A stretch of DNA of 64,000 bases, from the NCBI RefSeq assembly GCF_034479635.1, contig NZ_CP140153.1, positions 1,433,501-1,497,500 of the forward strand, in the 5' to 3' direction. The stretch is from Guyparkeria halophila. Its GTDB lineage: Bacteria > Pseudomonadota > Gammaproteobacteria > Halothiobacillales > Halothiobacillaceae. The number at the start of each line of letters is the position of its first letter. The stretch's first letter is position 1. Positions 35,606-47,242 of this stretch are shown piece by piece. The notes below the pieces were generated by a model. That model saw only the letters and a list, made by a program, of their open reading frames with translations, searched no databases and had not been told where the DNA came from. The position numbers and the translations under genes are program-made.

Positions 35606-36415
35606 TCATCCACCTAAGGCGCGAATCGCCTCGTCGAGCTCGTCATCGATCATGCTGGACTCGAGGTCCACGCCCAGCTTTTTGGCGGCCATGATCGGCC
35701 GATCGTCGGGCGTACGACTGATGCCACGCGCCTGGGCAATCGCACAGATCACCACATCGCTGTAGTTCGGATCACCGTCGTGCTGATAGCCCAGATCCCC
35801 ACAGTGCTCGATCACCTCGGCGAACATGTCGGGGAAATCCCAGGCCTTGACGATATTCCCCCCCAGCCGCGACTGCAGGCTCTCGACCAGCTCGTTGAGC
35901 ACGGCCGGCGCATCCTGCAGCTTGGGGATGTCTTCGGCCACCACGATTACCGGGATGCCACCAACGCTGTGCAACAGGCCGGCGAGCAGCGCCTGGTCGG
36001 CATCCAGTTTGGTATGCCGACGGGCAATGTGATTCGCCAGTGCCGCGACCTGCGTGGAAAAGGCCCAATGGTCACGCATGATCCGCTTGATCATGGCCGT
36101 CTTGGCAGTGAACAACTGCTTGGCCGACAGCGAGACAATCAGCTGGCTGACCGTGCGCATCCCCAACCGCGAGACGATCTGGTTGAGGTTGTCGATGTGC
36201 TGCGCCCCGCGATAAAGGGGGCTGTTTGCCACCTGGATCAATCGAGCGGCGATCGCCGGGTCCTGCGAGATCACCTCGACCAGATCGCTCGCCGAGCTGT
36301 TCGGGTCATCGATGATCCGGCGGGCCCGCAAGGCCACATCGGGCAGCACGGGCAACGAGATCCCCTTGTCGCGAATCTTGTTGATGATCGCCTGTTCAAG
36401 TGCCGGATTGGCCAC
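35606..36415 (-). CDS. HDOD-domain signalling protein
   Basis: 269 residues from GTG at 36415, chosen because CAGGGAG lies upstream and because the in-frame ATG at 36466 sits beyond the ettA terminator. The HDOD fold (non-catalytic HD relative) spans residues 15-210: LPVLPDVALRARRIIDDPNSS, then ISQDPAIAARLIQVANSPLY, then LLAGLLHSVGG. There is no attached GGDEF, EAL or receiver domain. Members act in regulatory networks such as motility or c-di-GMP signalling; the role here is unknown. Confidence 0.88.
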   Translation of the reverse strand: MANPALEQAIINKIRDKGISLPVLPDVALRARRIIDDPNSSASDLVEVISQDPAIAARLIQVANSPLYRGAQHIDNLNQIVSRLGMRTVSQLIVSLSAKQLFTAKTAMIKRIMRDHWAFSTQVAALANHIARRHTKLDADQALLAGLLHSVGGIPVIVVAEDIPKLQDAPAVLNELVESLQSRLGGNIVKAWDFPDMFAEVIEHCGDLGYQHDGDPNYSDVVICAIAQARGISRTPDDRPIMAAKKLGVDLESSMIDDELDEAIRALGG

Positions 36416-36430
36416 GTTCTCTACTCCCTG

Positions 36431-36464
36431 AAAAACGCCGTGCGCCCCCTCGAGGGCGCCCGGC
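36431..36464 (-). terminator. Intrinsic terminator after ettA
   Basis: On the minus strand, GCCGGGCGCCC pairs with GGGGCGCACGGC around a short loop, with one mismatch, and GTTTTT follows. It marks the end of the ettA transcript, eight bases after its stop. Confidence 0.75.
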
Positions 36465-36472
36465 AATCAAAG

Positions 36473-38140
<1,668 letters not shown>

Positions 38141-38231
38141 AGATTCCGAGACGTTGTGTTGTTGCAAACGAAATGAAGCGGCACTATCCCGCAAGATAGC
38201 GACCGCGTTTGATCACAAGGATACCAGCACT

Positions 38232-40109
38232 GTGCCGCGACTTGATGCCCCCTGCCCGACAACCCGTCACGCCTGGCCTCACCGGTGGGTTCCGATAGCG
38301 GTTAGGGAAACCCGGGGCTTGCGCCGACTGGTCGGCTTCTGGGCCGTGCTCGTGTTTGCCGCGACCGTTCTGGGCGCTCCTGCCCACGCCGCCTCCGAGC
38401 CCGAACTGCACGTGCTGATCGATGTATCCGGCTCGATGAAAAAGACCGATCCCGAGAACCTGCGCGAACCGGCCCTGCGGCTGCTCGGGGACCTGGTGCC
38501 CGAGGAAAGCCGCGTCCGACTCGATCTATTCGGCAATCGCATCAGCGAGGTCCTGCCCGCCTCGCTTGCCACCCCGGAAACCAAAAAGGCGATGCGTGCC
38601 GCCGCCGCGCAAATCCGCTCAAACGAGCCCTTCACCGATATCCCGGCGGCGCTCGAGGCCGCCAACCGCGACTGGGCCGAGAACACCGAACGCAACATCA
38701 TCCTGCTCTCCGATGGCAAGGTGGATATCTCTCCGGACGAGGCCGTCAACCAACGAGCGACAACCCGCCTGCGCGATACCGTCATCCCCGCACTGGTCGG
38801 TGCCGAGGTCCAGGTGCATACCGTGGCCCTCTCGGCTGCCGCCGACGAGTCGATTCTCACGGAAATCGCCGAGCGGACCGGCGGCCTCGCGCTCAGTGCG
38901 CGCAGTAATGAGGACTTGCAGCGCGTATTCCTCGCCCTGTTCGAAGCGACCGCCCCGCGTACGGGGGTGCCTCTGGTGGAGAACCGTTTTCGCGTCGACG
39001 ACACCATCAGCGAGCTGACGCTGGTGGTCTTCCGGGAAACCGATGCCGAGCCCACCCGCATACAGATCCCGGACGGCGGGGAAATCGACGTCGAGACCGC
39101 CAGCGCGCTGGCCGACTGGCGCTGGGATGACAGCGCCGGTCGGGACCTGATCACGATCAGCAATCCACCGTCCGGCAGCTGGCGCATTCTTGCCGCCGAG
39201 GATCCGGACAACCGCGCCCTGGTGATCACCGACCTCAAGCTTGCCATGCCGGGCCTGCCCAGCCGTGTATTCCCCGGCGAGGCGATCGAGGGTGGGCTGC
39301 TACTGACCAACCGTGGCGAACCGATCGTCGAACCACGTCTGACAAAGGACCTTCAGGCACAGGTCGACGTCAACGACCCACAAGAAACGGTAATCGAGTC
39401 GATCGAGCTCAACGATATCGGCGCCGATCCTGACGTACTCGGCGGCGATAGCCGCTACGATTTCCGCCTGCGGCTCGACGGCGAATCGGGGATCTACACG
39501 CTCGAAGGCCGGGCAAGCGGTCCGACCTTCGAGCGAGTGATCCGCAAGAAGATCGCGCTGGCTCGCAACCTCCCCTTCGCCGCCCGTGTGGTCCGTCCTC
39601 ACCTGGCGGCCCGCGGAGGCAATGGCGGTGGCAACGCCGACGGTAACGTCGACACGCGTGGACCAGCCGCCAGGCTGATCATCGAACAGGACGTGGCCCT
39701 GCTCGATCCGAGCGCCTCGCGACTCGTTGCGCAAGTCAATTGCGAAACCGGGCAGCCCACCCGGATCGAGGCATCGTTGTTGGAGGCCACCAACCGGATC
39801 GAACTGCCCCACCGCGATGGCAACGACTGCCGGGTAACCGGAACCATCCGTGGTGAGACCGACGATGGCCGCGAGGTGAGCTTGCCACTCGATCAACCCA
39901 TCCCGGCACCGTCGATCGATACGCCAGCCGATGAACCCACCGCGGACGACGAGCCGAGCGAGTCCACGGCCACCGATCGGGAAGGCAACCCGCTTATCGC
40001 GGTGCTGATCGGCCTCGGCGGACTGACGCTCCTTGGTCTGCTGGGCTGGGCCTGGCGACTGGTTACCCGGCGACAGCGTCGCCAACTGATTGAGGCTGCG
40101 CGGAACTGA
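38232..40109 (+). CDS. Membrane-anchored von Willebrand A domain protein
   Basis: 625 residues from GTG at 38232 (AAGGA ten bases upstream); a later TTG would give a shorter signal peptide, so the start is uncertain. A hydrophobic signal segment ends in APAHA. The vWA domain follows with a complete MIDAS: DVSGS (64-68), Thr135 in PFTDI and Asp161 in LLSDGK. Then beta-rich regions of unknown fold, an Asp/Glu/Pro-rich stretch, and one membrane helix near 586-607 with a short basic cytoplasmic tail. So the domain faces the periplasm. Probably co-transcribed with the next gene, 47 bases on. Function unknown. Confidence 0.82.
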   Translation: MPRLDAPCPTTRHAWPHRWVPIAVRETRGLRRLVGFWAVLVFAATVLGAPAHAASEPELHVLIDVSGSMKKTDPENLREPALRLLGDLVPEESRVRLDLFGNRISEVLPASLATPETKKAMRAAAAQIRSNEPFTDIPAALEAANRDWAENTERNIILLSDGKVDISPDEAVNQRATTRLRDTVIPALVGAEVQVHTVALSAAADESILTEIAERTGGLALSARSNEDLQRVFLALFEATAPRTGVPLVENRFRVDDTISELTLVVFRETDAEPTRIQIPDGGEIDVETASALADWRWDDSAGRDLITISNPPSGSWRILAAEDPDNRALVITDLKLAMPGLPSRVFPGEAIEGGLLLTNRGEPIVEPRLTKDLQAQVDVNDPQETVIESIELNDIGADPDVLGGDSRYDFRLRLDGESGIYTLEGRASGPTFERVIRKKIALARNLPFAARVVRPHLAARGGNGGGNADGNVDTRGPAARLIIEQDVALLDPSASRLVAQVNCETGQPTRIEASLLEATNRIELPHRDGNDCRVTGTIRGETDDGREVSLPLDQPIPAPSIDTPADEPTADDEPSESTATDREGNPLIAVLIGLGGLTLLGLLGWAWRLVTRRQRRQLIEAARN

Positions 40110-40156
40110 ACCCGCCGACCATCACGCACAATCGACACATCACGGAACACGGACAC

Positions 40157-41704
40157 ATGCTCGATTACTTCCTGAGCTCAGACTGGGCCATTATCGCCAC
40201 CGAATTACTGGCGGGATTCATCGTGATCTCACTGGTGCTCGCCATCCTGGTGTGGCGGGGACAGCGACGGCATACCGGGGCCGCCGAACGCCTGCTGGAC
40301 GATCGCGACCCGATCATGCGCGCCTCCGAAGAAATGCTCGAACGCCAGATTCATCGCACCTGGCCCGAACTCACGGTCGGTGACGAGCAGCGCGAGAGCT
40401 ATGCCGAACGCAGCCTCGATGCAATCGAGGCCATGGTCGAACCCTGGCTTGAGCCCAAGCGATACGAACTGGCGGCGGTCGCGCGGCGATTCCTGCAAGT
40501 GCGCCAGGCCGACCTGGACCAGCTGTTGACCCTCGCCCGCGCCCACGCCGAACAAAGTGCCGGCGACGACCCTCGCCTGGGTGAACTCGAACACGACGTC
40601 AAGGAACTGCGCGAACAACGTGACCGACAGGCCAAGCACCTCGCCGAAAGCCTGGAAACCGTCAACGTCATGGTTCGTGAATACGGCCGCAAGTTCGATT
40701 ACAACGACGAACCGCATGTCGCTACCGTGCTCAAGGCCATCGTCATGATCCAGGAAATGGATGCGGGAGCCGACTGTGAGACCGCCAAACATCGTGCCGA
40801 CGAGGTATTCAGCGAGGATCTGGTCGCCAGCGCCTCGCCGCCGGTAGACGAGAGCGACGCCTCTGTCCCTACGGGGGAGGACAGCACGGACGCCGCGACC
40901 GACCAACCGGCCGACCAACCGGCCGAAGAAACCGAGTCGGACACTGACACCCCCGCCCTCTCCGCCGAAGACGAGATGGCCGCCGCCATGGCAGCCGAAG
41001 GCGTGTCGAACGAGAAGACCGACGCCATGCAGGCCGCGGCACAGCAGCTCGAGGAGCAAGCCACCACCGTCGCTGCTTCCCAGGAAGAGGCCACCCGGCC
41101 GGACTCGGCAGACCACAGCGAAGCCGACGGTCGGCCCGCACAACCGACCAGCGACGAGACGGATGCCGAAACCGAAGAGCGGGCCGTTGACGCCACGGTC
41201 GAGCAGCAGGATGCCTCGCCGGATACCGGCGATATCGACCAACTGATCGAATCGGCCGCCCAGGCCCAACCCGAGACGATCAACACCCCGAACGCCGACG
41301 TGACCGCTCAGGCCGACAAGACCGCTCAGACCGACGAGACGGAAACGACCGGGGGCGCCGAGGAAAGTGTCACGCCGTCGGGTGGAGACGAACTCAAGCA
41401 GGAGCAGGCGCCCCCTTCGGCTCCCGATAGCGCAGACGAGGAGGTCGCCAGCGCCCAGCCCGCTGAGCCCGAGAGGCAGGACGAATCCGAATCAGCCGAG
41501 CCGACCGAAGCCCGGCAAGAGCAAAGCCGCGAGGAGGAGCAGGAAGAAGGTGAGAACGGCGTGATCGATCTCGATGACGTCGAAATCCCCAAGGAAGATG
41601 AAAAGGACAAGGAAGACGGCAAGGATGAGGAATTCGATCTCGACGACATCGATGCCCTCCTTGATGCCGAGATTGCCCGCAAACACGGCCAGGGCAGCGA
41701 GTAA
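40157..41704 (+). CDS. Acidic membrane-linked protein of unknown function
   Basis: Not recognised. 515 residues. One N-terminal membrane helix (about 9-33) followed by a basic WRGQRRH stretch predicts a cytoplasmic body. A helical, partly coiled-coil part spans about 40-200 (ERQIHRTWPEL, LEHDVKELREQRDRQAKHLAE); residues 215-485 are low-complexity and rich in Glu, Asp, Ala, Thr and Gln. The C-terminus ends in an ordered-looking peptide LDDIDALLDAEIA (495-507), similar to the CheY-binding peptide of FliM; a weaker copy, DIDQLI, is at 359-364. It pairs with the vWA gene. Confidence 0.75.
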   Translation: MLDYFLSSDWAIIATELLAGFIVISLVLAILVWRGQRRHTGAAERLLDDRDPIMRASEEMLERQIHRTWPELTVGDEQRESYAERSLDAIEAMVEPWLEPKRYELAAVARRFLQVRQADLDQLLTLARAHAEQSAGDDPRLGELEHDVKELREQRDRQAKHLAESLETVNVMVREYGRKFDYNDEPHVATVLKAIVMIQEMDAGADCETAKHRADEVFSEDLVASASPPVDESDASVPTGEDSTDAATDQPADQPAEETESDTDTPALSAEDEMAAAMAAEGVSNEKTDAMQAAAQQLEEQATTVAASQEEATRPDSADHSEADGRPAQPTSDETDAETEERAVDATVEQQDASPDTGDIDQLIESAAQAQPETINTPNADVTAQADKTAQTDETETTGGAEESVTPSGGDELKQEQAPPSAPDSADEEVASAQPAEPERQDESESAEPTEARQEQSREEEQEEGENGVIDLDDVEIPKEDEKDKEDGKDEEFDLDDIDALLDAEIARKHGQGSE

Positions 41705-41708
41705 TCAC

Positions 41709-41734
41709 GAAAAAACCCCGGAGAGTATCCGGGG
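41709..41734 (-). terminator. Intrinsic terminator after the peroxiredoxin gene
   Basis: Seven-bp stem CCCCGGA/TCCGGGG, 5-base loop, followed on the minus strand by TTTTTT. It lies between the convergent acidic-protein and peroxiredoxin genes; rightward it has no T run. Confidence 0.8.
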
Positions 41735-41764
41735 TCGTCGCAATCGGGTCTTGGCGGTGCCTTC

Positions 41765-46929: not shown

Positions 46930-47006
<77 letters not shown>

Positions 47007-47165: not shown

Positions 47166-47242
<77 letters not shown>

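Follow-up and report, generated by a model that had tools for sequence, protein, structure and literature searches.

Several of the closest described systems to the locus reported here are linked to flagella. MotW (VC2232) of Vibrio cholerae is described as having a signal peptide, three immunoglobulin (Ig)-like periplasmic domains, a single membrane helix close to the C-terminus and a short, basic tail; MotW is polar via HubP, and its loss lowers the tumbling frequency and the speed, with the flagellum still made (PMC8789113). FipA has a short N-terminus, a single membrane helix and a cytoplasmic coiled coil, and is conserved with FlhF/FlhG (PMC11620751). Further papers report that CheY binds the EIDAL motif of FliM (PMC6946799) and that the FliM N-terminus mediates the interaction of FlhG with FliM/N, FlrA sharing that FlhG site (PMC12826062, PMC11236974). 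Here we analyzed a stretch of 64,000 nucleotides from Guyparkeria halophila (contig NZ_CP140153.1, positions 1,433,501 to 1,497,500); this whole stretch is called the window, and positions are counted from its first letter. The source genome is 2.45 Mb in total. Two adjacent genes in the window encode a MotW-like protein with an additional von Willebrand factor A (vWA) domain (protein 1) and an acidic membrane protein (protein 2, the partner). On balance, we favor the reading that the two genes encode one inner-membrane complex of the MotW type, which serves the polar flagellum and docks the readers of C-ring peptides by its acidic tail.

On the + strand, the vWA gene spans 38232-40109 and the acidic gene 40157-41704, with 47 bases between them. 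An earlier note, made from the letters of this DNA, had placed the pair here and had given protein 1 a signal peptide, a complete metal-ion-dependent adhesion site (MIDAS) and a C-terminal membrane helix; the open reading frames (ORFs) confirmed the former, and sequence, Pfam and AlphaFold2 (AF2) the latter. The features of the pair are listed below (pLDDT, predicted local distance difference test).

38232 to 40109, + strand: vWA gene, protein 1; 625 aa from GTG, with an alternative in-frame TTG start at 38319
38319 to 38390, + strand: predicted signal peptide, residues ~30-53, expected cleavage after APAHA (sequence; AF2 helix 31-47)
38397 to 38951, + strand: vWA domain, residues 56-240, with complete MIDAS (Pfam PF00092, 4.2e-9; AF2; VIA-align; conserved columns)
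38985 to 39245, + strand: Ig-like beta-sandwich domain 1, residues 252-338 (AF2 blocks with pLDDT 93-98; TIGR03503 match 246-457)
39282 to 39593, + strand: Ig-like domain 2, residues 351-454, containing a region of the DxGxxxDxxxxDGxY type (AF2; choice_anch_X in 18/36 relatives)
39672 to 39902, + strand: Ig-like domain 3, residues 481-557 (AF2)
39990 to 40061, + strand: predicted C-terminal membrane helix, residues ~587-610, then a basic cytoplasmic tail (sequence; AF2 helix 587-624)
40157 to 41704, + strand: acidic partner gene, protein 2; 515 aa, no family match
40184 to 40255, + strand: predicted N-terminal membrane helix, residues ~10-33 (sequence; AF2 helix 8-48)
40202 to 40204, + strand: Glu16, a near-invariant acidic residue within the membrane helix (conserved in ≥90% of the rows of two alignments, with 42 and 67 rows)
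40304 to 40825, + strand: helical and coiled-coil part, residues 50-223, including the conserved EY motif (E175) (alignment; AF2)
40835 to 41701, + strand: acidic low-complexity cytoplasmic tail, residues 227-515 (sequence)
41231 to 41248, + strand: second, weaker FliM-like motif DIDQLI, residues 359-364 (motif search)
41645 to 41662, + strand: DIDALL motif, residues 497-502, resembling the FliM N-terminus (motif search)

The two genes are a two-gene unit across many gammaproteobacterial families, in shuffled neighborhoods. Among 57 genomes (the source genome included), protein 1 was matched in 36, some of these matches being weak and confined to the vWA part, and protein 2 in 24. Among the matches listed, the next same-strand gene across many families encodes an N-terminal membrane helix and mostly a long acidic cytoplasmic part, and the other neighbors vary. 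In three samples of testable vWA-bearing loci, the partner lay directly behind the vWA gene in 48/53, 71/76 and 6/6, and thus homologues of the two genes occur together in most loci examined, a check for which the earlier note had asked. The intergenic gap was 50 bp or less in 72 of the 75 cases measured; the genes overlapped in 45/75, by 4 bases in 24/75. Because the arrangement recurs in most families examined, the pairing is not due to chance. The first sample consisted of 60 loci minus L070 and L072-L074 (no vWA hit), L071 (spurious), L106 (no vWA) and L119 (contig end). False partners were removed at L057, L063 and L121, the true partner of L121 being at a larger gap. The second sample was taken from the best 80 of 234 relatives, among which named relatives had 85-86% protein identity; L146, L194, L208 and L209 (at or near contig ends) were omitted, and L156 and L168 were counted by profile hit only. 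Since the two samples share species (for example, L132 and L206), the comparison of vWA domain with partner and the tail-relocation comparison below are on redundant rows.

The partner was present in 125/135 vWA-bearing loci and in 0/15 vWA-less loci. Therefore, the vWA domain and the partner come and go together. The vWA-less set consisted of 14 loci and L106; L263 was a weak test (367 bases behind the gene), and the candidate at L259 fails the partner profile. Partnerless vWA-bearing loci numbered 5/53 (L057, L063, L114, L130 and L145) and 5/76 (L185, L211, L222, L223 and L225), and in 7 of these 10 the vWA protein carries an acidic tail of its own. Of the 135 loci, 19 have a vWA protein with a cytoplasmic tail of 60 residues or more and 22-41% Asp+Glu. 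At these 19 loci, the partner was absent in 7 and no longer than 220 aa in 9 (16/19), whereas elsewhere it was absent or no longer than 220 aa in 9/104. Thus, in most cases only one of the two subunits has the tail, and a shift of the tail between subunits is as expected for one complex. At one of the partnerless loci with its own acidic tail (L130, 6428-8845), the gene downstream of the vWA gene is one that we take, from its sequence, to be CheV-like. Another locus (L186) is on a contig titled Klebsiella pneumoniae metagenome-assembled genome; it has the pair, its genome has FliM, and the record is probably mislabelled.

By its sequence, protein 1 is a divergent TIGR03503 relative behind its vWA domain, with three Ig-like domains and a membrane helix. 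TIGR03503 matched residues 246-457 with 100.4 bits (E 1e-28), which is below the curated cut-off of 305.6 bits. Residues 232-478 are homologous to an above-cut-off TIGR03503 protein (E 6e-24), and the model matched 36/36 rows of the alignment of protein 1 relatives (E ≤ 0.001). The AF2 model, from a 66-row alignment, had a mean pLDDT of 87.8 and contained the vWA domain, three beta-sandwich domains and a helix at residues 587-624; the AF2 input alignment excluded L190, in which the MIDAS pattern was not found. The start of the protein is uncertain because residues 1-30 had pLDDT 44-49 and starting from the TTG (38319) would yield a cleaner signal peptide. The MIDAS residues are D64-x-S66-x-S68, T135 and D161. 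D161 was invariant over 36 aligned rows, and the other four were conserved in at least 90%. The vWA domain fitted 4fx5 with a VIA-align Z of 26.5 and a root-mean-square deviation of 1.8 over 190 residues. The structure-search lists for protein 1, whose Ig-like domains were part of the whole-protein query, were filled by vWA matches. At one locus (L135, 6740-8566), the vWA region is without the MIDAS residues in the alignment and the partner, with DIDAIL/DIDALI motifs, is retained. Thus, metal binding is not always needed.

The above-cut-off TIGR03503 proteins examined are ~420-500 aa and have no vWA domain. The vWA-less TIGR03503 gene lies directly behind dnaQ (signature in 13/14), and the rnhA signature is on the far side in 9/14. 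In V. cholerae, rnhA is VC2234 (PMC6606805). Because the dnaQ/rnhA position and the architecture match, VC2232 is very probably the TIGR03503 gene. Protein 1 shares the signal peptide, the three Ig-like domains, the C-proximal membrane helix and the basic tail with MotW and TIGR03503. In contrast to them, it has a vWA domain with complete MIDAS before the Ig-like region, scores 100 bits against the cut-off of 305.6 and has the acidic membrane partner, which is in 0/15 vWA-less loci. Unlike the MotW position, the window vWA gene has no dnaQ or rnhA neighbor; it is divergent from an ettA-like gene. A literature search, in which subscription journals and preprints were thinly covered, turned up neither a MotW form with a vWA domain nor the acidic partner. 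Protein 1 also resembles the CLCA proteins in the order of a vWA domain and beta-sandwich domains, but it is bacterial, it has a membrane helix and a cytoplasmic tail, and the CLCA protease domain was not found. In the alignment of relatives, the TIGR00868 hCaCC (calcium-activated chloride channel) model matched 13/36 rows and choice-of-anchor X 18/36.

Protein 2, which the earlier note had called unrecognised, is indeed in no named family searched. NCBIfam and Pfam gave zero matches for it at E ≤ 1 and scattered matches only for its relatives, and a known family was thus rejected. A known fold was likewise rejected, as there was no Foldseek match at E ≤ 0.001. The PDB profile search gave one match below 0.001, to the designed protein 9dm3 (2.1e-4); the rest were weak, many of them coiled coils. 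A single partner row in one alignment matched the tyrosine recombinase models XerC/XerD (best E 3.8e-7). The part up to about residue 223 is all-helical with a coiled coil (AF2 pLDDT 85.9) and is followed by ~290 acidic low-complexity residues, which end in ...DLDDIDALLDAEIARKHGQGSE. Because basic residues follow the membrane helix, the body of protein 2 should be cytoplasmic according to the positive-inside rule. A Glu in the middle of the membrane helix was present in 85/89 non-redundant partners. In its short N-terminus, single membrane helix and cytoplasmic coiled coil, protein 2 resembles FipA, but it differs in the lack of a DUF2802 match (Pfam, E ≤ 1), in the long acidic tail and in the periplasmic vWA partner. 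With HubP/FimV it shares a membrane anchor and a long acidic cytoplasmic region in polar flagellates; it differs in having no LysM or FimV domain match (Pfam/NCBIfam, E ≤ 1).

The acidic tails carry peptides of the C-ring type. We reduced 123 partners to 89 non-redundant ones and analyzed 91 tails, namely 77 partner tails (>220 aa) and 14 vWA tails. In an unbiased count of 6-residue patterns, DIDALL came first: 15 tails had it, and it was absent from all 20 shuffled versions of the set. SW..AF, the highest-ranked pattern unrelated to it, was in 9 tails and was likewise absent from the shuffles. Wider patterns, which were fixed after some tails had been seen, gave the FliM type in 22/91 tails (shuffle mean 0.6, maximum 5) and the FliN type in 17/91 (mean 0.3, maximum 2). 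Either motif was in 39/91 tails. The two occurred together in 0/91 (p 0.009), an exclusion that is confounded by ancestry because most FliN-type rows look like one clade. The DIDALL of the tail resembles the EIDALL core of FliM, and the tails of other lineages have a FliN-like D(D/E)xWAxAL/MxEQ. The pair differs from FliM and FliN in that no FliM or SPOA domain was detected in it and that the peptide lies, often repeated, in a membrane-anchored acidic tail. In protein 2 of the window, the FliM-type docking core (residues 497-502) falls within a stretch that is terminal and exposed or disordered.

The tail peptides were also compared with FliM and FliN from the same genomes. This comparison covered 21 genomes, mostly chosen for a tail motif; pattern matching located a FliM peptide in 15 of them and a FliN peptide in 14. 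FliM of the source genome starts with ...ILSQDEIDALLNG; it reads EADILSQDEIDALLNGVDEG where the window tail reads EEFDLDDIDALLDAEIAR. Its FliN (...DDDWAAAMAEQ) reads KSTDDDWAAAMAEQGDT. In genome G243, FliN is EEDPWSEAMDEQ and the tail is DDPWADALSEQ; in genome G158, whose vWA protein bears the tail itself, FliN is DDWAAAMEESGD and the tail is ADAWAEALDEAGD. A DNA pattern matching the motif occurred five times in the source genome and its reversed control once; the FliM gene of this genome was missed, probably because of its codons.

The distribution of the genes follows that of flagella. We searched 274 sampled Gammaproteobacteria and found TIGR03503-like genes in 78; in the same genomes, flagella were scored by a FliM match or by FlhF above its cut-off, and the association was counted at the genome and family level, without a tree. 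FliM or FlhF was present in 75/78 genomes with the TIGR03503-like gene and in 72/196 without it (Fisher 8e-22). At the family level, a flagellated member was sampled in 49/49 families with the gene and in 46/122 of the others. When the count was restricted to genomes of 1.8 Mb or more, 75/145 flagellated and 3/86 non-flagellated ones had the gene. Moreover, of 50 further pair-bearing genomes (from the 80 named loci), FliM was found in 47, and FliG in 2 of the 3 without FliM. FliG was also without a match in the incomplete genomes G034 and G211, both of which were scored as flagellated by FliM or FlhF. Within FliM-positive genomes, the association with FlhF was not significant (70/73 vs 62/69, p 0.2), and therefore polar and other flagellation are not separable by this test. 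The 3 genomes of the sample with the TIGR03503-like gene but no FliM or FlhF are G225, G124 and G107 (discussed below). G225 is 64% complete and has a flagellated congener. In G124 (L331, C71:1-6000), which gave no FliM, FlhF or FliG match, the vWA gene is broken into two reading frames about where the vWA part meets the Ig-like part, which may be due to decay or to a sequencing error.

These results suggest a new envelope-to-motor control device, whose working we picture as follows. The periplasmic vWA domain and the three Ig-like domains would read or bind something at the pole, such as HubP/FimV, the wall or the flagellar basal body; the polar location itself is suggested by the homology to MotW. 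Protein 2 would join protein 1 in the membrane, probably through the intramembrane Glu16, so that the pair would form one physical complex, and would extend its coiled coil and the long acidic tail into the cytoplasm. This tail would, in many lineages, offer one to six copies of a peptide that resembles the N-terminal docking peptide of FliM (EIDALL) or FliN (DDxWAxAM/LxEQ). Judging from these peptides, CheY or FlhG may be the binder: the tail would concentrate or titrate CheY~P or the flagellar number regulator FlhG beside the motor, outside the C-ring, and the outcome would be tuned switching, speed or flagellar assembly. The pair would be the full form and MotW a reduced form. Going further, we tentatively propose a signaling or scaffold complex of polar flagellates, undescribed by the searches made, in which multivalent FliM/FliN mimics on a membrane-anchored tail could hold CheY~P or FlhG under a periplasmic MIDAS sensor; lineages would alternate the type of mimic, and the tail could switch subunit.

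The proposal connects a widespread gene pair that is so far unannotated with the polar flagellum, the short C-ring-like peptides being the handle. If it is true, a second docking site for CheY~P or FlhG exists apart from the motor, bound to the membrane and connected to the periplasm, and this would bear on how flagellar number, switching and speed are set in polar flagellates. It could also explain how MotW acts on the motor although this Ig-domain protein hardly extends into the cytoplasm: MotW may be what is left of a complex that had two subunits. The earlier note had read the pair as a two-part device that spans from the envelope to the cytoplasm, in which the vWA domain would bind a ligand in the periplasm or cell wall and the acidic tail would recruit a partner in the cytoplasm. 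Its pairing, its novel partner family and its membrane span held up, since the pair should cross the inner membrane and the relocation of the tail between subunits fits one complex. The periplasmic body does contain the vWA domain, but together with three Ig-like domains of the TIGR03503/MotW type rather than alone. Ligand binding by the vWA domain gained no support here, and L135 keeps the partner without the MIDAS residues. The polar flagellum and chemotaxis make a likelier setting than general wall sensing.

Several observations weigh against the flagellar reading. In the sample, 46 of 95 flagellated families lack the TIGR03503-like gene, which is thus an accessory gene. One genome (G107, very probably the same genome as G410) has an intact pair without FliM, FlhF or FliG matches; in favor of the reading, its tail is shorter and is without the DIDALL stretch present in its flagellated family-mate G231. 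When eight flagellar-operon proteins of the source genome (FliM, FliN, FlhA, FlhB and FlhF included) were searched against 160 neighborhood loci at E 1e-8, only three weak FlhF matches (1e-9), probably other SRP (signal recognition particle)-type GTPases, were obtained, and a place of the pair in flagellar operons was rejected. Neither motif was in 52/91 tails, and a DIDALL-type peptide is also present in an unrelated protein of the source genome. This protein (L292:1820-2521; C1:1321319-1322020) has 233 aa with EIDALLADIDG near the N-terminus, one hydrophobic stretch and no Pfam hit, and looks like an RseA-type anti-sigma factor; the EIDALL core is thus not unique to flagellar proteins. Furthermore, VC2232 was matched to TIGR03503 by position and described architecture rather than by sequence, and the vWA-less MotW-type loci have no partner, so that the MotW phenotypes speak for protein 1 only.

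The best surviving alternative is that the pair, as part of the HubP/FimV network, organizes the pole for type IV pili, chemoreceptor arrays or the wall; the flagellar coincidence would then come via the networks of polar flagellates, and the motifs would bind another partner. FimV was found in 17/18 pair-bearing genomes searched, the source genome included, and MotW is HubP-dependent (PMC8789113), as this explanation would have it. We nevertheless consider it unlikely. A PilQ match (any match at E ≤ 0.001, which may include other secretins) was in 77/78 genomes with the TIGR03503-like gene and in 185/196 without it, and thus fails to separate carriers from non-carriers as the flagellar markers do. 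The strict FliM-type motif, the only type tested, was in 0/16 FimV/HubP proteins from genomes with the pair, against 0.1 expected from shuffles. Where both were read, the tail peptides agree with the FliM and FliN encoded in their own genome.

Somewhat less probable still is a generic sensor of envelope stress or wall integrity, like the vWA proteins BatA/B, in which the acidic tail would be a mere spacer and the motifs and the flagellar link would be by-products of shared ancestry. The vWA fold does match BatB 3ibs and 4jdu, among many others, the vWA domain is tethered to the inner membrane as in BatA/BatB, and the NCBIfam BatA model matched 5/36 protein 1 relatives. The tails without motifs, and the correction of the association counts to the family level only, would also suit this explanation. 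But protein 1 has another domain order with three Ig-like domains, the motif counts are far above composition-preserving shuffles and the association persists at the family level and among size-matched genomes. Neither a MoxR gene nor a second Bat gene was recognized beside the pair. Very improbable is the idea that the vWA protein acts alone like MotW, the acidic protein being an unrelated neighbor kept by chance: partnerless loci exist (5/53 and 5/76), but the genes often overlap (45/75), the partner is tied to the vWA domain (125/135 vs 0/15, redundant loci) and 7/10 partnerless loci have the tail on the vWA protein. We retain the flagellar complex as the favored reading.

In the surroundings of the pair, the flanking genes are, judging by their sequences, ettA-like (divergent), HDOD-like, peroxiredoxin-like (convergent) and murB-like. 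The earlier note had seen no transposon, ATPase or protease partner, and we too recognized no MoxR-type ATPase or protease by eye among the neighboring ORFs of the window. It had also asked for a check of conserved further neighbors; a third gene common to most loci was not found, the runner-up ORF cluster being in 14/60. A BatA/B-MoxR type of system was rejected, as the ATPase was not recognized and most loci have no third gene in common. An anti-phage defence system was also rejected (0 PADLOC families for both proteins, E ≤ 0.01). The HDOD-like and ettA-like genes (window 35606-38194) adjoin the pair in Halothiobacillaceae and L134, and the arrangement differs in the other loci of the 60; a fixed link to ettA was thus rejected. 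A terminator-like hairpin at 41714-41736 (- strand) most likely belongs to the convergent peroxiredoxin-like gene, and such sites are not above the shuffle mean. Further downstream, behind metG, two tRNA-Met (CAT) genes (46930-47006 and 47166-47242) lie 159 bases apart and are possibly a tandem duplication.

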